Below, in pieces: positions 14,122 through 44,309 of a DNA stretch of 44,309 nt; positions within the stretch are counted from its first letter, which is position 1, and each line of letters begins with the position of its first letter. A program made the translations under genes and the position numbers. The notes below the pieces were generated by a model, which made no database searches, was not told where the DNA came from, and saw only the letters and a program-made list of their open reading frames with translations. The DNA is from Thalassobaculaceae bacterium. GTDB lineage: Bacteria > Pseudomonadota > Alphaproteobacteria > Thalassobaculales > Thalassobaculaceae. Location: NCBI GenBank assembly GCA_029212785.1, contig JARGOG010000019.1, forward strand, positions 5,519 to 49,827, given 5' to 3'.

Positions 14122-15450
14122 GTGGATCAGGATACCATCTTTGCCCCGGCGACGGCACCGGGCAGGGCGGCGTTGGCGATCGTCCGGATCTCCGGGGCGG
14201 CGGCCTTCGATGCGCTCCGCGATCTGGCGGGGGACGTCCCGCCGCCGCGACGTCTGTCCCGCCGTATCCTGCAGGATTCCGGCAATGGCGAAATGCTGGA
14301 CGAAGCCATGGTGGTGGCGTTTCCCGGACCGCGAACCGCGACCGGGGAGGATGTCGTCGAGTTGCATCTGCATGGCGGGCGGGCGGTTGTTTCGGCGATC
14401 TGCGACCGGCTGTCGGCGCGGGCCGGAACGCGGCTGGCGGAACCGGGTGAATTCACCCGGCGGGCATTTCTGAACGATCGCCTCGACCTGACCCGGGCGG
14501 AAGGCGTGCTGGATCTGGTCGACGCCGAAACGGAGGCACAGCGCCGTCAGGCGGTGCGCCAGGCGACCGGCGGGCTGACGGCGGCCCTGGATGATTGGCG
14601 CGACAGACTGGTCGGTGCCATGGCCCGGCTCGAAGCATTCATCGATTTTCCCGACGAGGATCTGCCGGGAGACCTTCAATCGCAGATCCGGGAAGACCTG
14701 TCCGCGGTGATCCGGGAGATGCGGACCGCCTTGGCGGACGGGCACCGCGCGGAACGGGTACGGGAAGGACTGCGGATCGCGATTGTGGGAGTGCCGAATG
14801 CAGGCAAGTCATCGCTCCTTAACTGGTTGGCAAAACGCGATGTTGCTATCGTGAATGCGGCCGCCGGCACGACCCGGGATGTCTTGGAGGTACACCTCGA
14901 TATCAATGGGTATGCCGCTACGGTAGCGGACACGGCGGGACTGCGTGAGACCCCCGATGAAGTGGAGGCGGAAGGCGTGCGCCGGGCCCTGGCCCGAGCC
15001 GAGGCGGCGGATCTCACCCTGGTTCTGGCCGACGCGAGTGCGGGCGCGGCAGGGCGCGCGGCCATGCGCCGGCATCTGGGGGAGAACGCCTTGGCGCTGG
15101 CGACCAAGGTCGATCTGATCGACGCGCCGGTTCCCGCTCCCTGGATCGGGTTGTCGACTCTGTCGGGGGCGGGTACCGACGTGTTTCTGGCGGCACTGGG
15201 GGCGGCAATGGCCGAACGCATGGACCGGGTCGGCGCCGTGGCGCTGACACGGGCGCGCCATCGCGCGGCAGTGGTGACGGCCGAGGCGGCCGTGGCGCGC
15301 TGCGTCTCCGGACTGGAGGGCGGGGAACCATTGGAGATTTCCGCGGAAGACCTGCGGGTGGCGGCCGGGTCTCTCGGTCGGATCCTGGGGAGGGTCGATG
15401 TGGAACAGATCCTCGATCGGATCTTCGGCGAATTCTGTCTCGGGAAATGA
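14122..15450 (+). CDS. mnmE: tRNA modification GTPase MnmE
   Basis: With MnmG it installs the carboxymethylaminomethyl group on wobble uridine 34 of certain tRNAs. The 442-aa product starts at GTG (DTIFAPATAPGRAALAIVRISG). The N-terminal tetrahydrofolate-binding domain carries FPGPRTATGEDVVELHLHGG and PGEFTRRAFLNDRLDLTRAEGV. The G domain has IVGVPNAGKSSLLN (G1, about 221-234), GTTRD (G2) and DTAGLRET (G3); KVDL stands in for G4 NKxD. The protein ends in FCLGK with the conserved Cys (C439). It is followed by a parS site and mnmG. Codons around 14915-14929 form a CCGCTAC/GTAGCGG inverted repeat. Confidence 0.97.
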   Translation: MDQDTIFAPATAPGRAALAIVRISGAAAFDALRDLAGDVPPPRRLSRRILQDSGNGEMLDEAMVVAFPGPRTATGEDVVELHLHGGRAVVSAICDRLSARAGTRLAEPGEFTRRAFLNDRLDLTRAEGVLDLVDAETEAQRRQAVRQATGGLTAALDDWRDRLVGAMARLEAFIDFPDEDLPGDLQSQIREDLSAVIREMRTALADGHRAERVREGLRIAIVGVPNAGKSSLLNWLAKRDVAIVNAAAGTTRDVLEVHLDINGYAATVADTAGLRETPDEVEAEGVRRALARAEAADLTLVLADASAGAAGRAAMRRHLGENALALATKVDLIDAPVPAPWIGLSTLSGAGTDVFLAALGAAMAERMDRVGAVALTRARHRAAVVTAEAAVARCVSGLEGGEPLEISAEDLRVAAGSLGRILGRVDVEQILDRIFGEFCLGK

Positions 15451-15468
15451 TCGGCCGGCGTTGCCCGT

Positions 15469-15484
15469 CGTTTCACGTGAAACG
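15469..15484. other. parS site 3 (mnmE-mnmG gap)
   Basis: CGTTTCACGTGAAACG keeps the 14-bp core and is palindromic over 16 bp. It lies 19 bp after the mnmE stop codon and 62 bp before the mnmG start. Confidence 0.9.
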
Positions 15485-15546
15485 CGATGGCGGCATCGGA
15501 CGGCGGAATCTTTGACAGGGGCGGTGCCTCTGCGTATCTCAGGATC

Positions 15547-17415
15547 ATGAGCTCCTTTGACATCATCATTGTGGGTGGTGGCCATGCCGGGTCGGAAGCG
15601 GCCGCGGCCGCCGCCCGCTTGGGCGCGCGCACCGCGCTGGTGACCCATCGCCGGGAGACCGTGGGGGTGATGTCGTGCAATCCCGCGATCGGCGGTCTTG
15701 GCAAGGGCCATCTGGTGCGGGAGATCGATGCCCTGGACGGCATCATGGGGCGGGCGATCGACCGCTCCGGTATCCAGTTCCGCATGCTCAACCGGTCCAA
15801 GGGACCGGCCGTGCGGGGCCCGCGGGCCCAAGCGGATCGCGCGCTATACCGTGCCGCCATCCAGGACATCCTGGGCGGGTACGAGTCCCTGGAGATCGTC
15901 GAGGCCGGTGTCGAGGATCTGATCCTGCGGGACGGACGCTGTGCCGGCGTGGTCCTGGGGGACGGACGGGCGTTGACCGCCGGGGCGGTGGTGCTGACGA
16001 CCGGCACGTTCCTGCGGGGCGAAATCCATCTCGGGGACGAACGGCGGCCGGCGGGGCGCGTTGGAGATGCGCCCGCCATCGGATTGGCCAGGACCCTGGA
16101 ACGGCTCGGCCTGCCCCTCGGGCGACTCAAGACCGGCACGCCCCCGAGGCTCGACGGTACGACAATCGACTGGAGCGGGCTCGAGGTCCAGCCCGGGGAC
16201 GATCCGCCGGAGCCGTTCTCGACCCTGACCGAACGTATCACCGTGCCGCAGATTCCCTGCCATATCACCTATACCAACGCGGCGACCCATGCGGCGATCC
16301 GCGACAATCTCGATCGCGCGCCGATCTATAGCGGCCAGATCGGCAGCACGGGCCCACGCTATTGTCCGTCGATCGAGGACAAGGTTGTGCGCTTTGCCGA
16401 CAAGGAGAGCCATCAGATCTTCTTGGAACCGGAAGGACTGGAGGATCCGACCATCTATCCGAACGGGATATCGACCTCGATGCCGCGCGATGTGCAGGAT
16501 CGGATCGTGGCCTCGATCCCTGGACTGGAACGCGCCCGGATCCAGCAATATGGCTATGCGATCGAATATGATTATGTGGACCCGCGAGCGCTCTCGAATA
16601 GCTTGGAGGTGAGGGCGTTGCCGGGGCTCTATCTGGCCGGTCAGATCAATGGAACCACCGGTTACGAGGAGGCCGCGGCCCAGGGTCTGGTGGCTGCTAC
16701 CAACGCTACCTTGGTAGCGGGCGGATCGGATGACTCACTATATATAGACAGAGCTACCGGGTATATGGGGGTGATGATCGACGATTTGGTGTCTCGGGGG
16801 GCCCCAGAGCCCTACCGGATGTTCACGTCCCGGGCGGAGTATCGACTGCGGTTGCGGGCCGACAATGCGGACCTTCGTCTCACCCCTCTGGGGCAGCGCG
16901 TGGGTCTGGTCGGATCGCGGCGGAGAGAGGCTTTCGCGACACGGAAGGCGTTGCTCGATGTTTCACGTGAAACACTGGGCGCCCTTGGCGGCTCTCCCCA
17001 GGCCCTCGCGAGGCTTGGATTCACGGTCAATCAGGATGGTCAGCGGCGATCGGCCCTTGATCTGCTGACCTATCCGGACATCCCGTGGGACCGGATTGTT
17101 GCCGCCTGGCCCGAGAAGCTCTCCGAAATCCCCGCGAGCGTGGTCGAACAGATCGCAACCGAGGCCCGATACGCCGGATATCTGGCGCGGCAGGAGGCGG
17201 ATATCCGCGCTTACCGTCGGGATGAGACGTTGGAGCTCCCGGAAGACCTGGATCCGGAAACGATCGGCTCGCTCTCGACTGAAATCCGCGCGCTGTTGCG
17301 TCGAGAGAAGCCTCGTACCCTGGGTCAGGCGAGCCGGTTACCCGGAATGACACCGGCAGCGGCCGTCGCCTTGCTGCGTCACGTGAAAAAAACCGATAAG
17401 AAGACGGCGGCGTGA
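15547..17415 (+). CDS. mnmG: tRNA U34 carboxymethylaminomethyl synthase MnmG (GidA)
   Basis: FAD/NADH-dependent partner of MnmE. From the ATG at 15547 the product is 622 aa with [16 protein letters not shown] (FAD dinucleotide fold, residues 4-18), [69 protein letters not shown] and the C-terminal helical domain with [20 protein letters not shown]. The frame opens 20 codons earlier, but the conserved start is here, after AGGA. parS site 4 is inside the gene (translated VSRET). Around 16690-16760 the codon choice changes: GCT, CTA, TAT, ATA and AGA replace the usual GC-ending codons. Confidence 0.97.
16959..16974. other. parS site 4 (inside mnmG, perfect)
   Basis: TGTTTCACGTGAAACA matches the consensus at 16 of 16 positions. 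The triplets GTT TCA CGT GAA ACA encode VSRET in the MnmG frame. Confidence 0.95.
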
Positions 17416-18017
17416 CCCCTCAGGACCTCCAGAACCGTCTGTCCCTCGACGCGGCGCAGCGCAAGGCACTCGAATCCTACGCGGAGCTGCTCCGGAAATG
17501 GCAGGCCAAGATCAATCTGGTCGCGCCGGCGACGCTTCCGGACCTTTGGTCGCGCCATTTTCTCGACTCCGCCCAGCTCCTGCCCCATCTGGAGGGCCTG
17601 CCGGGTCCGATTCTCGATTTCGGGTCGGGCGCCGGGTTCCCGGGCCTGATCCTGTCGATCCTGGGGCGGGATGACGTCATCATGGTCGAATCCGATCGGC
17701 GGAAAGTCGCTTTCCTTCAGGAAGTCGCCCGGGTGACCGGGGTCAAACCGGCCATCGAATGCTGTCGAATCGAATCACTACGCCCGATTCGCGCCGGTAT
17801 TATCACCGCAAGGGCACTTGCACCGGTCGAAAAGCTGTTGCGCTACGCCGAGCCATACGCCGGTCAGGCAACGGTCTTTCTGTTCCTGAAAGGGGAGCAG
17901 GTAGACGCCGAGTTGACTACCGCGCAAAAGACCTGGAAAATGGCTGTCACCAAGGCTCCCAGCATTTCTGACTCCCGGGGGGTCGTGCTGAAGCTGGAGG
18001 AGGTTAGCCGTGCTTGA
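17412..18017 (+). CDS. rsmG: 16S rRNA (guanine527-N7)-methyltransferase RsmG (GidB)
   Basis: Methylates G527 of 16S rRNA with SAM. At 201 aa it is normal in length. The SAM-binding motif [18 protein letters not shown] is at 67-84, preceded by [28 protein letters not shown] and followed by [17 protein letters not shown] and [13 protein letters not shown]. The GTG start overlaps the mnmG stop (GTGA), and its own 3' end overlaps parA by 8 nt. Codon use is less GC-biased than in its neighbours. The 606-bp frame carries eight GANTC sites. Confidence 0.96.
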
Positions 18018-18837
18018 CGGACAGACCAATCAGGTAGTGGCCCCGCGTATTCTGGCGATCGTGAACCAGAAGGGCGGCGTTGGTAAGACGACGACCGCAG
18101 TGAACCTGGCCACGGCCATGGCCGCCTGCAACAAGAAGGTCCTGGTGATCGATCTCGATCCCCAGGGCAACGCGTCGACCGGATTCGGAGTGCCGCGCAA
18201 GGGGCGGGACGCGGATTCCTATGCCGTGCTGATCGGCCAGGCGACGATCGCCGAGGCGGCGATCGAGACGCCGGTGCCGGGTCTGGAGGTCGTGCCGGCC
18301 TCCTCGGACCTGTCCGGCGCCGAGATCGAGCTGGTCGATATGGACCATCGTGAGTTCCGATTGCGCGAGGCCGTGGTGCGGCACGCGGCGACCTCGCCTT
18401 ACGATTACATCCTGATCGACTGCCCGCCGTCCCTCGGACTGCTGACGTTGAACGCCCTGGTCGCGGCCGATGCCGTCCTGGTGCCGCTGCAGTGCGAGTT
18501 CTATGCGCTGGAGGGTCTGTCGCAGCTGGTCCGCACCGTCGAGCGGGTGCGCAAGGCGTTGAACCCCGGCCTGGACATCCAGGGCGTGGTGCTGACCATG
18601 TTCGATCGCCGCAACAATCTGTCGGAACAGGTGGCGGCCGATGTGCGCGACTATTTCGGCGACACCGTGTACCGCACGGTGATTCCGCGCAACGTCCGGG
18701 TCTCCGAGGCGCCGTCCTACGGCAAGCCGGTGATTGTCTATGACATGGCATGCAGCGGGGCGAGGGCGTATATCTCTCTGGCCCGTGAGGTGCTGGCGCG
18801 CGAGTCCGCCCTGGCGGCGCGCCCGGTCGCGGCCTGA
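18010..18837 (+). CDS. parA: Chromosome partitioning ATPase ParA
   Basis: Nucleoid-bound ATPase whose gradient pulls ParB-parS complexes after replication. The 275-aa product has the deviant Walker A NQKGGVGKTTTAVNLA (KGGVGKTT at 21-28), VIDLDPQGNASTGFG (A' motif), YDYILIDCPPSLGLLTLNAL (Walker B) and VLTMFDRRNNLSEQV. No N-terminal DNA-binding extension is present, as usual for chromosomal ParA. It starts with GTG inside rsmG. The parB gene follows after 95 bp, and the cognate parS sites lie upstream between 11.6 and 17.0 kb. Confidence 0.97.
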   Translation: MLDGQTNQVVAPRILAIVNQKGGVGKTTTAVNLATAMAACNKKVLVIDLDPQGNASTGFGVPRKGRDADSYAVLIGQATIAEAAIETPVPGLEVVPASSDLSGAEIELVDMDHREFRLREAVVRHAATSPYDYILIDCPPSLGLLTLNALVAADAVLVPLQCEFYALEGLSQLVRTVERVRKALNPGLDIQGVVLTMFDRRNNLSEQVAADVRDYFGDTVYRTVIPRNVRVSEAPSYGKPVIVYDMACSGARAYISLAREVLARESALAARPVAA

Positions 18838-18932
18838 CCGTGGCGGTCTGAACCAACCTGGATCAGCGGGCGGCGCGCTGCCCGTTTCCGACCCCAGAAT
18901 CCCGACCCCGATCCCGGCCAGCCTGAGGTGTG

Positions 18933-20180
18933 ATGAGCGAAGAAACCGGTAAACGCCGCAGCAACAAGCTGGGACGCGGTCTGTCCGCGCTCCTCGGCGA
19001 AGACGAGAACGAGCAGGAGCAGCTCGAACGGTTGCGTCAGTCCCGCGCCCTGCCGGTCGAGCAGCTGACCCCGGGCCCGTTCCAGCCCCGCCGCCGCTTC
19101 GATCAGGAAGACCTGCGGGAACTGGCCGACAGTGTGCGCGAGCAGGGCGTCATCCAGCCGATCCTGGTGCGCCGGGACCCGGATGGTGACAAGTACCAGA
19201 TCATCGCCGGTGAGCGTCGGTGGCGGGCGGCCCAGCTGGCCCAGCTGCACGAGGTTCCGGTTCTCATTCGGGAATTCGACGACCAGACGGCGATGGAGAT
19301 CGCCCTGGTCGAGAACGTCCAGCGCCGGGATCTTACCGCGCTGGAGGAGGCCGAGGGCTATCGCCGGCTGATCGACGAATACAGCCACTCCCAGGACGAT
19401 ATCGCGCGGGCCGTCGGCAAGAGCCGGAGCCATGTCGCTAACACCCTGCGGCTGCTCAACCTGCCGGACGAGGTCCGGGTTCTGCTGGATGACGGGCAGC
19501 TCAGCGCAGGGCATGCGCGCGCGCTGCTGTCGGCGGAGGACCCCGCGGCCCTGGCCCGGGATGTGGTGACGCGGAAGCTGAACGTGCGCGACACCGAGCG
19601 CCTCGTGCAGCGTGAGAAGACGTCCACGCCATCACCGGCCGCAGCGAAACAGAAGGATGCGGACACCCGTATCTTGGAACAGGACCTGTCCGATCGGACA
19701 GGTCTAGTGGTAGCGATCAGCCATAACGCCACTTCCGGGGCTGGTAGCGTGACGCTTCGCTACCGCGATCTGGACCAGCTTGACCTTATTGTCGAGCGGC
19801 TTTCCGCCCATGCCAACCAGCGCCCGGACTCCTATCTGGCACCGGACGGCGACGAGGAGGCGGACTCCACGGGCGCGCCCGATGACGGCGACTGGTCAAC
19901 ATTCTCGGCAGTCGGCGACGAGGACGCAATCGCCGATGAGGAGGGATTGCCGCCGGCAATCGACCTTGATGAGGACAGCGAACCGATTGGTGGCATGGAC
20001 CCGGCCGGGCCGCTTGAGGGCTTGCCGATGACCGAGGACGCGCCGGAGCGCGATTTCATCGCCCCGATATCCGAGGACACCGATGCCGGGAGCGGCGCTG
20101 TCCCGGACGATCCGACGGAAACCCGGTGGGACTTCGACGATGACGATGAAGACGACGATCCCCTGGTCCCCAAGCTCTGA
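18933..20180 (+). CDS. parB: Chromosome partitioning protein ParB with long acidic tail
   Basis: CTP-dependent clamp that loads at parS and spreads. Numbered from the ATG at 18933 (GAGG ahead), the N-terminal KLGRGLSALLG motif is at 12-22. The CTP-binding domain has QPRRRF, GVIQPILVR, GERRWRAA (93-100) and ENVQRRDLTALEEAEGY. The helix-turn-helix region is DIARAVGKSRSHVANTLRLLNLP, and the C-terminal dimer domain ends with LRYRDLDQLDLIVERL at about 290. Most chromosomal ParB proteins stop near here. This one continues for about 120 residues rich in Asp, Glu, Pro and Gly, ending WDFDDDDEDDDPLVPKL. The coding DNA near residues 250-277 holds a perfect 22-bp palindrome and three GGTAGC/GCTACC copies. 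Confidence 0.97.
   Translation: MSEETGKRRSNKLGRGLSALLGEDENEQEQLERLRQSRALPVEQLTPGPFQPRRRFDQEDLRELADSVREQGVIQPILVRRDPDGDKYQIIAGERRWRAAQLAQLHEVPVLIREFDDQTAMEIALVENVQRRDLTALEEAEGYRRLIDEYSHSQDDIARAVGKSRSHVANTLRLLNLPDEVRVLLDDGQLSAGHARALLSAEDPAALARDVVTRKLNVRDTERLVQREKTSTPSPAAAKQKDADTRILEQDLSDRTGLVVAISHNATSGAGSVTLRYRDLDQLDLIVERLSAHANQRPDSYLAPDGDEEADSTGAPDDGDWSTFSAVGDEDAIADEEGLPPAIDLDEDSEPIGGMDPAGPLEGLPMTEDAPERDFIAPISEDTDAGSGAVPDDPTETRWDFDDDDEDDDPLVPKL
19683..19704. repeat. Perfect 22-bp palindrome inside parB
   Basis: The half site GACCTGTCCGA is followed directly by its exact reverse complement. It is read in frame as D-L-S-D-R-T-G plus the first base of the next Leu codon, using ACA, GGT and CTA, codons that are uncommon in this gene. 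A GGTAGC copy follows 5 bp later. Confidence 0.8.
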
Positions 20181-39992: not shown

Positions 39993-41429
39993 GTGATCGG
40001 GACCCCGTCGCCCCCTTCTCCGCCGCCCCCTTCTCCGCCGGCCCCGCCCGAGGCGATACCGGAAGCGGAAAGACGTCACCAGACCAAGGCACAGAACCCG
40101 GCGGCTCACCTGGTGCCCCACGCCGTTGTCCTGCCGGCCCCGGTGCGCGCGGCGATGGCGGAACAGCAGGAATCCAGCGAGATCCTGATCGGCTGGATCC
40201 AGCTCGCGGTGGTCGTCGGCTTCGGATCGCTCTACGCCCTGTCGCCGAAGACCTTCCCGCCTGAGGCCACGCTCCATCCGATCCCCTGGGTGCTGGGGGC
40301 CTACACCGTCTTCACCCTGCTGCGGCTGTATCTGGCCTACCGCCGACAGCTCGCCAACTGGTTTCTCGGCCTTTCCGTCGTCGCCGACATGATGCTGCTG
40401 CTCGGCACGATCTGGAGCTTCCACGTGCAGTACATGCAGCCGGCCGCCTTCTATCTGAAGGCGCCGACGCTCCTGTACCTCTTCATCTTCATCGCCATCC
40501 GCACCTTGCGCTTCGAGCCGCGCTACGTGATCCTGTCGGGAGTGGCGGCGGCGCTTGGCTGGGTCGCCATGGTGGTCTATGCGGTGTTCCTTGATGGCAT
40601 GCATTCGCCGATCACCCGCGATTACGTGCAGTACCTGACCACCAACGCGATCCTGATCGGCGCGGAGTTCGACAAGATCGTCTCCATTCTGGTCGTTACC
40701 GCGATCCTGGCGATCGCCATCGTGCGGGCGCGTCGACTGCTCGTCCAGTCGGTGCGGGAAAGCCTGGCCGCGCGGGAGCTGTCGCGGTTCTTCGCCCGCG
40801 ACGTGGCCGATCGGATCACCGACCTCGATCATGCGGTCCGGGCGGGCGGCGGCGAGATCCGGGATGCGGCGATCCTGTATGTCGATATCCGCGGGTTCTC
40901 GCAGGTCGCGACCGAAATCCCACCGGATGAGCTCCTGTCCCTGCTGTCGGAATACCAGCACCTCGTCGTCCCGCTGATCCAGCACCACGGCGGCAGCATC
41001 GACAAGTTTCTCGGCGACGGGATCATGGCTACCTTCGGGGCGACGCGGGTCAGCCCGACCGCGGAGGCGGATGCGCTTCGCGCCGTCGATGCCGTCATGC
41101 AGGCAACCGCCGATTGGCGGGAGGTCCGGCGGGCCAAGGGGATGCCGGCGCCGGTGGTCGGCGCGGCGGTTGCCGCCGGGCCGGTGGTGTTCGGCGCGGT
41201 CGGTGACGACACCCGCCTCGAATACACGGTGATCGGCGCCGCGGTGAACCTCGCGGCGAAGCTGGAGAAGCACACCAAGATCGAAGGCGTTCGGGCCCTC
41301 ACCGACCAGGCCAGCTTCGAGCGGGCCGGTGATCAGGGCTACACAAGCAATCCGGGGCAGAAAGCACGCAACGGTCGGCAGGTGATGGGGCTGGAGCAAC
41401 CGGTGGATCTGGTCATCCTCGCCCCCTGA
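39993..41429 (+). CDS. Membrane-anchored class III adenylate/guanylate cyclase
   Basis: The 478-aa product starts with GTG after GAGGG. It has a Pro-rich N-terminus, six hydrophobic segments between about 62 and 250 (ILIGWIQLAVVVGFGSLYAL to IVSILVVTAILAIAIV), a short helix (ARELSRFFARDVADRI) and a class III cyclase domain. Metal Asp residues are in AILYVDIRGFSQVA and DKFLGDGIMATFG; the substrate loop is LEYTVIGAAVNLAAKLEK, where the more usual GDAVNLAARLE has A and K. It makes cAMP or possibly cGMP at the inner membrane. A 15-bp unit is repeated twice in the DNA (40009-40038), coding the PPSPP stretch. It follows the methyltransferase after 10 bp. Confidence 0.92.
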   Translation: MIGTPSPPSPPPPSPPAPPEAIPEAERRHQTKAQNPAAHLVPHAVVLPAPVRAAMAEQQESSEILIGWIQLAVVVGFGSLYALSPKTFPPEATLHPIPWVLGAYTVFTLLRLYLAYRRQLANWFLGLSVVADMMLLLGTIWSFHVQYMQPAAFYLKAPTLLYLFIFIAIRTLRFEPRYVILSGVAAALGWVAMVVYAVFLDGMHSPITRDYVQYLTTNAILIGAEFDKIVSILVVTAILAIAIVRARRLLVQSVRESLAARELSRFFARDVADRITDLDHAVRAGGGEIRDAAILYVDIRGFSQVATEIPPDELLSLLSEYQHLVVPLIQHHGGSIDKFLGDGIMATFGATRVSPTAEADALRAVDAVMQATADWREVRRAKGMPAPVVGAAVAAGPVVFGAVGDDTRLEYTVIGAAVNLAAKLEKHTKIEGVRALTDQASFERAGDQGYTSNPGQKARNGRQVMGLEQPVDLVILAP

Positions 41430-41449
41430 GAGCGAACCGGTCTCGTGCC

Positions 41450-41524
41450 TGGCTGGGGCGGCAGGGATCGAACCTGCGAATGGCGGTACCAAAAACCGCT
41501 GCCTTACCACTTGGCTACGCCCCA
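41450..41524 (-). tRNA. tRNA-Gln (UUG), CCA encoded
   Basis: On the minus strand, TGGGGCG at the 5' end pairs with CGCCCCA near the 3' end, followed by the discriminator G and an encoded CCA. The D-arm region is TAGCCAAGTGGTAAGGCA, the anticodon loop is TTTTGGT with anticodon TTG, and the T-arm is GCAGGTTCGAACCCTGC. The gene is 75 nt with CCA. Confidence 0.97.
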
Positions 41525-41618
41525 GACGAGCCGGACCATACGCAACTCACGCCATTTCAAGCAAGGGCCAGGTTGCGATATCATGGCGTCAGCGTCCGCC
41601 CCTAGCCGGAGACTGCCC

Positions 41619-42023
41619 GTGGCTTCGCGAAGCAAGGCCAAACTGCCCTGGAGTGTCAAAGGCGTGACCGCCGAATCGCGGGATCTCGCTAAATCCGCCG
41701 CCGCCGACCATGAAGCGACCATGGGCGAATGGTTGAGCCATGTCATCCGTCGCGTCGGGGCGGCGGAGGCCTCAGGTCGACCGTTGCAGCCGGCCGATAC
41801 TCTGAGGAGCGATGGAGCGGGAAGTGCTCTCGTCGCCAGTGGCGGAGAGGACGAGGTGGTTGAGGATGCGGCGCTGATCGCCGGCGTGCACCAGCGCCTT
41901 GAGCGCAGCGAGACCCGCCTGCTGGATGTGTTGGACGGTCTGGAGGATGTGGTCGAGAAACTGGCGGATCGCATCGGCCGCCTCGAGCGCCGCGGCAACC
42001 ATTCCGGCGAACGCGGGGACTGA
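41619..42023 (+). CDS. WSVKG-module protein 1 (short coiled coil)
   Basis: The product (134 aa from the GTG with GGAG six bases ahead; an ATG at 41583 would add 12) opens with LPWSVKGVTAESRDLAK...GEWLSHVIRRV. The same module heads the next two genes. The middle is Gly/Ala/Asp-rich. The C-terminal LERSETRLLDVLDGLEDVVEKLADRIGRLERR is a clear heptad coiled coil. No membrane segment is present. I recall this WSVKGI...A...GEWLN module at the N-terminus of polar proteins such as PodJ, where it precedes coiled coils. The function here is unknown. Confidence 0.8.
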   Translation: MASRSKAKLPWSVKGVTAESRDLAKSAAADHEATMGEWLSHVIRRVGAAEASGRPLQPADTLRSDGAGSALVASGGEDEVVEDAALIAGVHQRLERSETRLLDVLDGLEDVVEKLADRIGRLERRGNHSGERGD

Positions 42024-42101
42024 CGTCGGAGGCGACCGCCGACGACCGCGGTAGGTCGGTGTGTCCTACGCCAATTCTATGCCATTTTCCGCCGAATTCT
42101 G

Positions 42102-42182
42102 TATACTGAAGACCAAAGTCGTACCGGGTAGTAGTCCCGGTACCGGGCCGTGAGGGATCGGCCGATAGGGGGACGACGGCCG
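42102..42182 (+). promoter_or_regulatory. Structured leader of WSVKG gene 2
   Basis: A TATACT box (42102-42107, no good -35) is followed by the perfect stem GTACCGGG/CCCGGTAC with a TAGTAGT loop (42121-42143). A second pair of CGGCCG elements (42159-42164 and 42177-42182) then holds the AGGGGG ribosome binding site in its 12-base loop, directly before the ATG. Confidence 0.4.
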
Positions 42183-42920
42183 ATGTCCGGATCTTCACCG
42201 TGGAGCATCAAGGGGGTTTCGCGACAGGATCGCGAGATTGCCAAGGAAGAGGCCCGTAAGAGCGGCGAGCCGATCGGGGTGTGGTTGTCGCGGCGGATTC
42301 GGGATGCATCGGCCGATGATCCCGCCGGCGCTGATCGCAGGATCGAGGATCGCAGGGCGGTGCCGGCGGTTCATTCCGGCGGTGAGCCGGCGTCGGGCAT
42401 TCCCGCCGAAGGCGACCGCCGCCAGGTCGTGCGCGGCATGGGGCGACGGACGACCGATCATCCGGATTTCGGCTTTGGACCTGGCAACTGGCGCCAGGCG
42501 CGGGAGACCATCCTGGCCCGCGAGGATTCCCGATTTTCGGAAGGGGTCGCGGCGCTGCGCGATCGGGTGCGGACGGTGGAGAACCGGCTGGCCGCGCGCC
42601 CGGACGCAATGGCCGAGGTCGAGGAGCGGATCCGCACGCTGACAGGCCGGATCGCCGAGATGGCCGGCCGGCTGGAGACGCTGGAAACCGATCGCGGTGT
42701 GATAACGGTGGAACGCAAGCTCGACCGGCTTGAGACCGATGTTATGGAGCTCGACCGGTTTGCCCGAAATCTGCCGGGCGAGACCTCCGAATTGATGGAC
42801 GGGCTGGAGCGGCGCATCGAGCAGCTGCTGGACCGGATGCGGGTGGTCGAGGAATTCGTGCTGCCGGGACGTCGCAAGGGTGGATTCTTCCGGCGGATGT
42901 TCGGACGGAAATCCCGCTAA
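42183..42920 (+). CDS. WSVKG-module protein 2 (coiled coil with cationic tail)
   Basis: The 245-aa product starts MSGSSPWSIKGVSRQDREIAKEEARKSGEPIGVWLSRRIRDA, the shared module. A variable linker follows to about residue 110, then long heptad coiled coils (EERIRTLTGRIAEMAGRLETLE, RKLDRLETDVMELDRFARN, LERRIEQLLDRMRVVEEFV). The last 17 residues, GRRKGGFFRRMFGRKSR, are strongly basic and aromatic and could bind membrane phospholipid or nucleic acid. The protein has no transmembrane segment. It lies between two relatives with the same N-terminus, probably from duplication. Confidence 0.85.
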   Translation: MSGSSPWSIKGVSRQDREIAKEEARKSGEPIGVWLSRRIRDASADDPAGADRRIEDRRAVPAVHSGGEPASGIPAEGDRRQVVRGMGRRTTDHPDFGFGPGNWRQARETILAREDSRFSEGVAALRDRVRTVENRLAARPDAMAEVEERIRTLTGRIAEMAGRLETLETDRGVITVERKLDRLETDVMELDRFARNLPGETSELMDGLERRIEQLLDRMRVVEEFVLPGRRKGGFFRRMFGRKSR

Positions 42921-42971
42921 TCCCTTATTGTTTCTGGTTGCTTTCAAGATCATCGCTACCAAGTTATGATG

Positions 42972-42985
42972 CGGTATTGATACCG
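42972..42985. promoter_or_regulatory. Candidate operator before WSVKG gene 3
   Basis: CGGTAT and ATACCG form an inverted repeat around TG, 14 bp before the GTG start. The flanking TACCGGTAGT resembles TACCGGGTAGT in the leader of gene 2, so a common regulator is possible. Confidence 0.35.
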
Positions 42986-42999
42986 GTAGTGAGGGTAAG

Positions 43000-44309
43000 G
43001 TGTCCCGAGACACCACGGCGTGGAGCGTAAAGGGAATCGACCAGGCGACGCGCGACATCGCGCGCCGGGCCGCTGCGTCTTCCGGGATGACGATCGGCGA
43101 ATGGATCGATCACGCGATCAAGTCCGATTCCGCCAATCGAGGCGTGCCGGTTCCCCTCGATCCTGGCGATCGTGGTGGCGGTCCGGGCGCCGCCCCGCGC
43201 CGCCGGGTCGATGGAATCAGCGCGGACACCGTCGAAGCGATCTTCAGCCGCATCTCCGACGGCGAAAGGCTGTTCGAAGCCCGCCTGCGGCCGATCGGCT
43301 ATGCCCTGAAGGATGTCGCGGAGCGGGTCGTCGCCCTGGAACGGGGCGCCGAACAGTTACCGCCGCCGGGTCGGCAGGGCATTGACGTCGAGCCCCGGCA
43401 GCCGGAACCGCCGGTCCGTACGCCGATCCCGTTCCGTCCAATCGCTCAGGCGCCGACCCAACAGTCTTCGGATCGCGAACCAGAGGACGACATCTGGTCC
43501 AGTGACCCGCCGACTCCGGCGTCGGAACCCCGGGGTGACCGACCGACGCCGACACCGATCACTTTCCGTCCTATTGCATCTCCCGAACCAGAACTTGCAG
43601 ATAAAAAAGAAGATTTCGGTCCGGTATCCCAATCAGAGGATCCACAGCCGACCGCGCCGAACGGACCTCCGGAGGCCTGGAAGCCCGAGATCGACATCGA
43701 TCGAGCGGCACTGAGCAGGGCGGCGGCGGATATCGGCACAACGCCCGAGGAACCGGGATATCCGGAACCGGTAGGGCCCGGTATGGAACCTGTCCAGGCG
43801 GCAGATGAGGCTGAAATCGCCGATGCCGAACCGGACGAGATCCCTCCGGCACCGGCCCAGCGTCTCGACGGGGCGCGACGTCCCGAAATTGATGACGATC
43901 CGACGACATTGCGCGAACGGCCGGAGGCGATCCCGCCCACGGCCGATTTTCCGGCAGATCCGATTGACACCCGGTCGCTGGGACTTTCCGGCGAGCCGAT
44001 CCCCACGGCCTTGCCGCCTCGCCGCCTCGCCGGCGCCGGCCGGCTCGCGATTGCGGCGTCGGTCGTGCTGGCCCTGGTCGCCGGGGCGGCCTGGACAATT
44101 CACCGCGAAGGCGTCGTCAGCCTCGGCGCCATCGGTGATCGCCTGACCCAGGCGGAGAATGCCGTTCATATCGCATTGGTTGAAACGACCGATTGGGTCG
44201 TGCACCTGGTGGCAACGACGGAACACGCGCGGGAAGACACCGAGTCTCCGCATGGCGATCCCGGGACGACAGCCCCGTCGGGGACGCTGGCGTCGGCCGA
44301 CCCGACCCA
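43000..44309 (+). CDS. WSVKG-module protein 3, membrane-spanning scaffold (3' truncated)
   Basis: The frame starts with GTG (GAGGG ahead) and is open to the window end, 436 codons. The module AWSVKGIDQATRDIARRAA...GMTIGEWIDHAIKSD is followed by a helical stretch (VEAIFSRISDGERLFEARLRP, ALKDVAERVVALERG). About 230 residues of acidic, Pro-rich disordered sequence come next, with an internal near-repeat (RTPIPFRPIA, TPITFRPIA). A single membrane helix, LAIAASVVLALVAGAAWTI, is at about 347-365, then a periplasmic part. N-terminal module, coiled coil, disordered region, one membrane helix and periplasmic end is the layout of PodJ-type polar scaffolds; the C-terminal domain that would prove it is outside the window. 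Confidence 0.82.
   Translation, partial: MSRDTTAWSVKGIDQATRDIARRAAASSGMTIGEWIDHAIKSDSANRGVPVPLDPGDRGGGPGAAPRRRVDGISADTVEAIFSRISDGERLFEARLRPIGYALKDVAERVVALERGAEQLPPPGRQGIDVEPRQPEPPVRTPIPFRPIAQAPTQQSSDREPEDDIWSSDPPTPASEPRGDRPTPTPITFRPIASPEPELADKKEDFGPVSQSEDPQPTAPNGPPEAWKPEIDIDRAALSRAAADIGTTPEEPGYPEPVGPGMEPVQAADEAEIADAEPDEIPPAPAQRLDGARRPEIDDDPTTLRERPEAIPPTADFPADPIDTRSLGLSGEPIPTALPPRRLAGAGRLAIAASVVLALVAGAAWTIHREGVVSLGAIGDRLTQAENAVHIALVETTDWVVHLVATTEHAREDTESPHGDPGTTAPSGTLASADPT

Follow-up and report, generated by a model that had tools for sequence, protein, structure and literature searches.

Three adjacent genes at the end of a 44,309-nucleotide stretch of Thalassobaculaceae DNA (hereafter, the window) share an N-terminal module of approximately 40 residues, WSVKG...GEWL, which structural models support as a ribbon-helix-helix (RHH)-like fold, and continue into a soluble, a putatively membrane-touching and a membrane-spanning body. 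Whether RHH dimerisation joins these soluble, membrane-touching and wall-anchored scaffolds into a PodJ-type polar, perhaps centromere-linked, complex is, in our judgement, an evenly balanced question. The first-pass annotation of this DNA had described the module, the diverging bodies and a likeness to PodJ; it did not mention the RHH-like fold, how old the module classes are, the MinD-like appearance of one C-terminal tail, ParB fusions in other lineages or the nearness of parAB.

Three tandem genes share one N-terminal module

Gene 1 (41583–42023, plus strand, 146 aa) consists of the module (PWSVKGVTAESRDLAK...TMGEWLSHVIRR; 41646–41753), a linker and a short C-terminal stretch that reads helical, without a transmembrane (TM) segment by hydropathy. 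A longer reading frame from a GTG at 41445 was rejected because it would run into a tRNA-Gln encoded on the opposite strand; an Rfam scan of 41000–44309 returned nothing besides this tRNA. Gene 2 (42183–42920, plus strand, 245 aa, or 256 aa from an alternative GTG at 42150) carries the module (PWSIKGVSRQDREIAK...PIGVWLSRRIRD; 42198–42305), long, coiled-coil-like helices and a C-terminal tail resembling a membrane-targeting sequence. The 5′ part of gene 3 (43000–44309, plus strand) comprises the module (AWSVKGIDQATRDIAR...TIGEWIDHAIKS; 43018–43125), a linker that reads disordered and a predicted TM segment, and stops at a scaffold gap. A promoter-like site was also seen at 42079–42107.

Over 36 aligned columns, the three modules have nine invariant positions (W5, S6, K8, G9, R15, A18, A22, G30 and W32). 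A search of the source genome with the gene 3 module hit three places, all at this locus: besides the query there were the module of gene 1, at 50% and E = 2.2e-7, and that of gene 2, at 41% and E = 7.9e-5. These values are far beyond chance, so that a fortuitous similarity was rejected, and they confirm the shared module described earlier at the head of three tandem genes; a profile built from the three modules scores them at 3–5e-21, by construction. The modules of genes 1 and 2 were recovered by alignment, own-genome search and profile, that of gene 2 also by a confident structural model, and that of gene 3 by alignment, own-genome search, an AlphaFold2 (AF2) model and RHH matches. The bodies diverge as first described, with a short helical-reading end in gene 1, helices spanning residues 102–226 and a cationic tail in gene 2, and a hydrophobic segment at residue 349 in gene 3.

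Pfam and NCBIfam scans placed neither gene 1 nor gene 3 in a family and gave weak, mostly coiled-coil-type matches for gene 2; the modules of two scanned PodJ-type proteins (loci L061 and L062) likewise fell into no Pfam or NCBIfam family. The module profile matched no PDB sequence up to E = 10 and nothing in a phage collection. Viral contigs yielded one module locus, where a PodJ-type gene lies close to one end of a sequence classified as viral, and no relatives of a module protein from an Acetobacter plasmid. In the literature, the letters WSVKG turned up only in two papers with unrelated titles.

Gene 3 and the PodJ architecture

The gene 3 product has one hydropathy maximum (2.25 over 19 residues; residues 349–367, 44044–44100), that is, a single predicted TM segment between a cytoplasmic and a periplasmic part. 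The window ends exactly at a gap of 100 N. The first-pass annotation had suggested looking beyond position 44309 for Sel1 or peptidoglycan (PG)-binding repeats, and across the gap (L008, 4930–5817) we found both Sel1 repeats (7e-25) and a PG_binding_1 domain (1.5e-15) by Pfam. Because these are encoded there, gene 3 very probably has the published PodJ architecture, its two parts being known from either side of the gap; uncut orthologues at loci L044–L046 (779–799 aa) hold the full architecture in one frame. Published descriptions of PodJ list coiled coils, a disordered region, a TM segment, periplasmic repeats and a PG-binding domain (PMC8980812, PMC9926476), with six coiled coils in the Caulobacter crescentus protein (PMC8980812). 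Gene 3 is like PodJ in its single TM segment, in Sel1 and PG-binding sequences beyond the gap and, through Brevundimonas relatives, in its N-terminal module; it differs in a cytoplasmic part that reads by eye as proline-rich and mostly disordered rather than as six coiled coils.

The first-pass suggestion that the module opens PodJ-type proteins was borne out in Brevundimonas and other Caulobacteraceae relatives, with which the comparison was made. Two named Brevundimonas proteins viewed in full contain the module, a long helical region, a hydrophobic segment and Sel1-like repeats and, by reading, appear to have no PG domain at their C-terminus. A wider scan took the best 80 of 579 relatives as named loci, of which 65 are titled Brevundimonas and nine Caulobacteraceae or Caulobacterales; since the ranking followed similarity to a Brevundimonas module, they are uninformative on spread, and since they were found via the module, its presence there is by construction. 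The complete set of TM, Sel1 and PG domains was found in none of the 70 uncut named loci, as judged with a single-sequence PG profile and our own TM cut-off. Each of the best 80 of 579 relatives has one module gene per locus, whereas the window adds two partner genes sharing the module. Of 76 matching genomes, 50 likewise have a single module; a PodJ-type protein therefore does not depend on the trio.

The available parts of the published PodJ accounts speak of coiled coils and do not describe the module. Caulobacter PodJ without residues 1–249 showed no polar accumulation and required about twice the concentration for phase separation (PMC8980812); the authors credit polar accumulation to coiled coils 1–3 and cite an independent route via the periplasmic domain (PMC8980812).

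A MinD-like tail on gene 2

In the AF2 model, gene 2 forms helices at residues 102–136, 140–166, 173–195 and 201–226, followed by a short, low-confidence tail helix at 235–240. The tail itself (KGGFFRRMFGRKSR; 42876–42917) resembles the membrane-targeting sequence of MinD in being a short C-terminal motif of aromatic or hydrophobic and basic residues (G-F-F-x-R-L-F-x-R). It differs in following a coiled coil instead of an ATPase and in a hydrophobic moment that is not above that of its own shuffles. The MinD tail acts as an amphipathic membrane helix (PMC13246001), and by analogy the gene 2 tail may bind the membrane. A strict tail pattern, written, like the longer variant list used for labels, after seeing the tails, occurred in 24 of 87 non-TM module proteins versus 0 of 43 TM ones (window gene 3 left out of the latter). 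Of the 29 loci that have at least three module genes, 20 carry this pattern in an internal gene. At the level of general plan, gene 2 and its plasmid cousins also recall TubY of type III plasmid partition, described as a DNA-binding-type domain, a coiled coil and a lysine-rich C-terminal amphipathic membrane-binding tail (PMC7762940); TubY, however, has a MerR-type helix-turn-helix where gene 2 has the RHH-like module.

The module is modelled as a ribbon-helix-helix fold

Two AF2 models place helices 14–27 and 31–45 behind an extended segment, with RHH size and spacing. Mean pLDDT was 71 for the first module model, and the block means over residues 11–40 of the gene 2 model were 91, 97 and 95; DSSP assigned no strand in these monomer models, which cover single chains; RHH dimers pair through an intermolecular antiparallel β-ribbon. 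When the module was compared with the PDB by Foldseek, RHH proteins, judged by title, made up 47 of the 50 rows listed (79 found). The best, 1myl (Arc), had a probability of 0.97 and 1.2 Å over 37 columns at E = 0.44; many RHH rows among the matches listed had an rmsd of about 1 Å, and none of the matches listed was below E = 0.001. The top VIA rows were RHH as well, with Z up to 4.9. With the whole gene 2 model, RHH proteins took 5 of the 50 Foldseek rows listed, including the first, the rest being mostly helical proteins.

Sequence comparisons pointed the same way. Weak Pfam matches of 48 modules fell into seven families, five of them RHH, versus none of five for 48 shuffled modules; E-values were 0.001 or weaker and reached no curated cut-off of an RHH family, for which reason we assign the module to none of the named Pfam families. 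In hhalign, none of 150 column shuffles scored as high as the module against RHH_1 or a merged RHH set, and one of 150 did so against a TacA1 set; under a different option, an earlier run had given a probability below 1%. Four RHH/TacA loci at contig ends (L188, L186, L192 and L203) were left out. Together, the models support an RHH-like (strand-helix-helix) fold, akin in predicted layout and profile similarity to Arc, CopG, ParG, TacA, NikA and MatP. Unlike RHH repressors and antitoxins, the module sits on coiled-coil, membrane and ParB proteins, and below every curated Pfam cut-off seen.

Gene order is conserved and the modules form three old classes

Architecture, tails, module tree and fusions were analysed at loci from 83 genomes, chosen as matching rather than at random and including 67 of the 76 matching genomes. 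The side-by-side arrangement of a soluble, a membrane-associated and a TM member, pointed out at the outset, recurs as a fixed order in several alphaproteobacterial families. Wherever three module genes of a window-family locus passed our cut-off (14 loci, counting L058, whose last gene is cut by its contig), a gene without TM or tail, a tail gene and a TM gene follow one another, and the same order with the strict tail is found in families f118, f98 and f74. Of 25 window-family genomes, 14 retain genes 1 and 2 next to gene 3 in this arrangement. Loci L053–L055 have no tail gene passing; L055 gave three genome-search matches, but its middle module lay below the later cut-off. The module search found none in two family genomes of genus g10 (G014 and G023), the former of which has ParB.

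On a module tree, the three position classes cost 9 changes versus 54.6 for shuffled labels. This tree leaves out identical modules, short or X-bearing modules, those whose E exceeded 1e-9, and everything from loci L060 and L231; the TM label was assigned manually to a single protein at each of loci L058, L213 and L230. The modules are three old positional classes, which rules out a recent duplication in this species. Concerted change of strand residues within clusters, viewed by eye, was not consistent and is not claimed.

ParB fusions and nearness to parAB

In six genomes from five families, all other than the window's, the module is fused to ParB, and in five of the six the fusion heads a cluster ending in a module-TM-Sel1 gene. 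Four fusions scanned with Pfam show the module followed by ParB_N and HTH_ParB, with ParB_C in two; five of the six genomes also encode a separate, better-scoring ParB elsewhere. The fusions share ParB_N and HTH_ParB with chromosome-partition ParB, whereas the window's own ParB (18930–20180, plus strand; ParB_N E = 5.3e-37) has no module by own-genome search. Together with parA (18010–18837, plus strand; identified by reading its frame), it lies about 21–22 kb upstream of the module genes on the same strand. Two families offered 13 cases with the cluster and parB on the same contig, and in 12 of these the cluster lies 16–23 kb downstream of parB; same-contig distances in G010, G278, G190, G033 and G286 run from 48 kb to over 1 Mb. 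Three genomes with the module (G015, G020 and G027) had no ParB_N match at E = 1e-20. The nearness may be merely conserved gene order.

A candidate polar scaffold and its alternatives

The evenly balanced reading with which we opened would have the module serve a PodJ-type polar scaffold mainly as its dimerisation or oligomerisation unit. The gene 1 product would present the module free in the cytoplasm, the long coiled coil and MinD-like tail of the gene 2 product would hold it at the membrane, and the TM segment, Sel1 repeats and PG-binding domain of gene 3 would anchor it through the membrane to peptidoglycan. Mixed RHH dimers among the three co-encoded proteins could then unite them in a single scaffold that is bound to the membrane and probably polar. 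The earlier suggestion that the parts meet through the module is strengthened by the modelled RHH fold, which is dimeric in known members. As the head member carries ParB in some lineages, one task of this assembly is perhaps to hold the centromere region, ParB-parS, or to position it. The tethering of ParB-parS is disturbed when podJ is lost, an effect that the authors see as running through PopZ (PMC10127582). PopZ is how the connection between pole and centromere in Caulobacter has so far been explained; the tandem partners, together with the ParB fusions, suggest that a direct route from a wall-anchored pole scaffold to the centromere is possible. An RHH-like domain in PodJ, a model scaffold that localises to the pole and binds PleC and PopZ, would, if true, offer a concrete dimerisation surface to mutate.

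A bolder version, less likely than not, sees in Alphaproteobacteria a polar centromere anchor built from an RHH-type dimerisation code, in which co-encoded proteins with one repressor-like module join ParB-parS (through fusion in some lineages), inner membrane (through the MinD-like tail) and wall (through TM, Sel1 and PG-binding parts), with Caulobacter PodJ as a reduced single-gene remnant and the plasmid module-helix-tail proteins of Alphaproteobacteria and Bacteroidota as tethers of the same design. These readings and the following ones are not exclusive of each other, and their likelihoods should be taken in that sense.

Alternatively, the three proteins could be independent scaffolds, their modules only homodimerising or seeding their own coiled coil, and their adjacency a product of old tandem duplication and co-regulation. 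Distinct module classes would be expected from diverged dimer specificity, and lone tail-type and lone TM-type genes exist; yet adjacency and order persist over several families and ParB fusions occupy the same kind of cluster, and we regard this account as rather unlikely.

Still less probably, the module binds DNA like classical RHH repressors, such that the membrane- or wall-anchored proteins tether a chromosomal site and the plasmid cousins tether plasmids. The RHH matches include the DNA-binding Arc, CopG, ParG and MatP, and module position 5, K or R in 112 of 128 non-ParB modules, aligns (from VIA ranges) with Arc R13, a contact residue of Arc. Module-helix-tail proteins also occur on small plasmids, several near rep genes and some with a GGRPRK stretch before the module, a basic stretch that the window proteins, however, do not have. 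Net charge is not against DNA binding: the module classes average +1.4, +2.5 and +0.7, and a charge argument is weak because 15 RHH_1 reference sequences, at -0.1, are no more basic. Against it, the mean charge of the four ParB-fused modules that were measured is -1.0 and none of them is basic at position 5, and some cluster members have E, D or P in place of K.

Least probable of all is the ordinary account of gene 3 as simply a PodJ orthologue, in keeping with its PodJ layout and the many genomes with a single module gene, beside two minor hypothetical proteins without special role, since genes 1 and 2 are retained in order next to it in those 14 of the 25 window-family genomes and tail-type proteins stand alone at loci L233–L235 and L238.

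A shared module opens three tandem genes

Three neighboring plus-strand genes (gene 1, 41583-42023; gene 2, 42183-42920; gene 3, 43000 to the window end) each start with the same module, as the first-pass annotation had proposed, and a search of the genome itself returned these three places only. The window, positions 5519-49827 of its contig, stops exactly where a 100-N scaffold gap starts. The suggestion to look beyond 44309 for Sel1 or peptidoglycan-binding repeats was borne out, as both Sel1 repeats (7e-25) and PG_binding_1 (1.5e-15) are encoded after the gap. Because gap-free orthologues (L044-L046, 779-799 aa) hold module, transmembrane (TM) segment, Sel1 repeats and peptidoglycan-binding domain in a single frame, gene 3 most likely has this layout as well. 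Full reading of two of the named-genome loci described below (L101, L117) revealed module, long helical region, hydrophobic segment and Sel1-like repeats, supporting the earlier suggestion that the module opens PodJ-type proteins. Just upstream of gene 1 lie tRNA-Gln(TTG) (41450-41524, minus strand) and, by reading, a membrane adenylate-cyclase-like gene (39993-41429, plus strand).

The module is predicted to resemble ribbon-helix-helix proteins

AF2 modeling of the gene 3 module (44 rows; mean pLDDT 71) placed helices at residues 14-27 and 31-45, and the gene 2 model showed the same helices, with pLDDT block means of 91-97 across residues 11-40. Judged by title, 47 of the 50 rows listed, out of 79 Foldseek matches, were ribbon-helix-helix (RHH) proteins (best E 0.44), with Arc, CopG, MazE, TacA2, ParG, NikA, MatP, AtaR, VapB and others among the matches listed; re-ranking of these same matches by VIA-align 2 gave Z up to 4.9, middling by the tool's own note. 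Weak Pfam matches of 48 modules fell on TacA1 (8), PSK_trans_fac (3), NikA-like (3) and HicB (2), all of which we take to be RHH families, on FitA-like RHH (1) and, outside RHH, on RuvA_C (3) and StiP (1). Shuffled modules matched five Pfam families with one member each, none of them RHH. With one option set, hhalign probabilities stayed below 1%; default settings yielded 26-40% for RHH_1 (15 sequences), 3-4% for TacA1 (6) and 51-67% for the merged set, scores that column shuffles reached in 0/150, 1/150 and 0/150 cases, respectively. The module very probably adopts an RHH-like fold, without our assigning it to any named RHH family.

In RHH proteins, two chains form a dimer around a two-strand ribbon that they share. 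One such module on co-encoded soluble, membrane-touching and wall-anchored proteins would offer a simple way to mix them, and natural single-chain pairs of modules (L065:5159-5944; L231:4170-5153, the latter protein also carrying ParB) would fit a dimeric module. DNA binding by the module is a less probable alternative; net charge does not set the module apart from RHH reference sequences. C. crescentus PodJ presumably carries the module, which would place it within residues 1-249. According to PMC8980812, PodJ without these residues did not accumulate at the poles and required about twice the concentration for phase separation; its authors hold coiled coils 1-3 responsible for the polar accumulation. 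Among open-licence papers, PodJ and ribbon-helix-helix occur together in one, on MatP (PMC12756933), whose relevant passages do not link them. The string WSVKG appeared in two such papers, both with unrelated titles, and none of the papers retrieved described the module in its title or the start of its abstract; as the check covered open-licence papers only, the module may have been described in print elsewhere.

Gene order and C-terminal tails recur across clusters

Three or more module genes were present in 29 of 63 loci examined, and in 27 of these the last gene carried the TM segment, the exceptions being L058 (cut by the contig) and L213. The strict MinD-like tail pattern of gene 2 was found on an internal gene in 20 of the 29, including all 14 such loci of the window family; reading revealed tail variants (for example RLARLFNLP, VMSRFFGRR, GGWWRRNRD) in eight of the other nine and none in L212. 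Three further family loci (L053-L055) had only short and TM members above the cut-off. The middle gene at L055:6410-7162 retains PWSVKGI and has lost the remaining module, by frameshift, decay or sequencing error. Outside the family we observed pairs that lack a tail gene (L223-L226), and other pairs (L227-L229) in which the TM gene is followed by a gene ending in GLGKLFGN.

Overall, 24 of 87 non-TM versus 0 of 43 TM module proteins carried the strict pattern; shuffling the 24 tails retained it in 0.25 on average and 3 at most. By amphipathic moment alone, tails were not separable from shuffles (0.74 versus 0.66; window gene 2, p 0.41). On a tree of 115 modules (38 columns; 64 of 112 inner branches unresolved), the soluble, tail-bearing and TM classes required 9 changes, a figure favored by near-copies, versus 54.6 in label shuffles, of which 0/200 were equally low.

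A possible link between module genes and chromosome segregation

A ParB scan of 83 loci returned six ParB-bearing frames, every one with a module: L065 (G040, f17), L221 (G122, f99), L222 (G209, f99), L231 (G075, f52), L253 (G090, f67) and L254 (G031, f8). Pfam found ParB_N (7e-16 to 1.5e-30) and HTH_ParB in all of the first four and ParB_C in two of them, and the ParB_N profile scored 3e-9 and 1e-12 on L253 and L254. In five of six loci the fusion heads a cluster ending in a module-TM-Sel1 gene, directly adjacent in L253 and L254 and separated by one or two more module genes in L221, L222 and L065; in L231 no further module gene was detected. Five of the six genomes encode a separate, better-scoring ParB elsewhere, and in G040 (93% complete) only the fused one was detected.

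In the window, mnmE, mnmG, rsmG, parA and parB (named by reading) occupy 14122-20180. Where parB and the cluster share a contig, the cluster is on the same strand as parB and 16-23 kb downstream of it in 12 of 13 cases (families f1 9/10, f118 3/3; exception G010); the two are on separate contigs in G002, G009 and G013. This nearness may be hitch-hiking, since in the other families examined the two are far apart or on different contigs.

Distribution and plasmid relatives

The module is present in 23 of 41 genomes, the window's own included. Of 25 window-family genomes, 15 hold three copies, two hold two, one holds one (at a contig end) and seven hold none (G001, G005, G014, G016, G021, G022, G023). 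G001 and G005, 1.5-Mb genomes of the window's genus at 99% completeness, lack both the module and ParB_N (at E 1e-20) and are suspected reduced symbionts. In a sample of 289 genomes drawn evenly from the class (completeness of 90% or more requested), 76 had a match, with three or more in 17, two in 9 and one in 50 (counted from the table). In a scan of named genomes with a Brevundimonas-headed alignment, each of the best 80 of 579 relatives had a single module frame at its locus; 65 of them carried a Brevundimonas title, 9 that of Caulobacteraceae or Caulobacterales and 6 another. A Brevundimonas-like module gene on a contig titled Pseudanabaena biceps (L147) is probably contamination in a cyanobacterial assembly. 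On one contig classified as viral, a PodJ-type gene (L204:3700-4573) starts close to the contig end and, by reading, just downstream of an integrase-like coding sequence, perhaps marking an integration site beside podJ.

With a 46-residue query, module proteins were retrieved from small plasmids of Acetobacteraceae and from one plasmid of Palleronia. The protein from Palleronia, in which the module is followed by a short helix and the end FWRRIFGSRRR, matched Spirosoma and Hymenobacter plasmid proteins with 77-80% coverage (E-values down to 4e-7), and the four of these whose tails were read carry FWQRVFG, FFQRLFG or FWQRVFGK. Such genes (L068:3956-4246, L205:1979-2428, L206:3521-4003, L207:4816-5136; Palleronia, Spirosoma, Hymenobacter) encode module, short helix and FFxRxFG-type tail and share the plan of gene 2. 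A replication gene adjoins the module gene in L206 and L208, is near in L068 and L205 and lies about 3 kb off in L207; GGRPRK precedes the module in L205 and L206. Most Rhizobium-group plasmid matches of the same query (rows H33-H60) were to site-specific integrases, which align with 38-44 residues of the module at 35-41% (E-values between 0.002 and 0.7).
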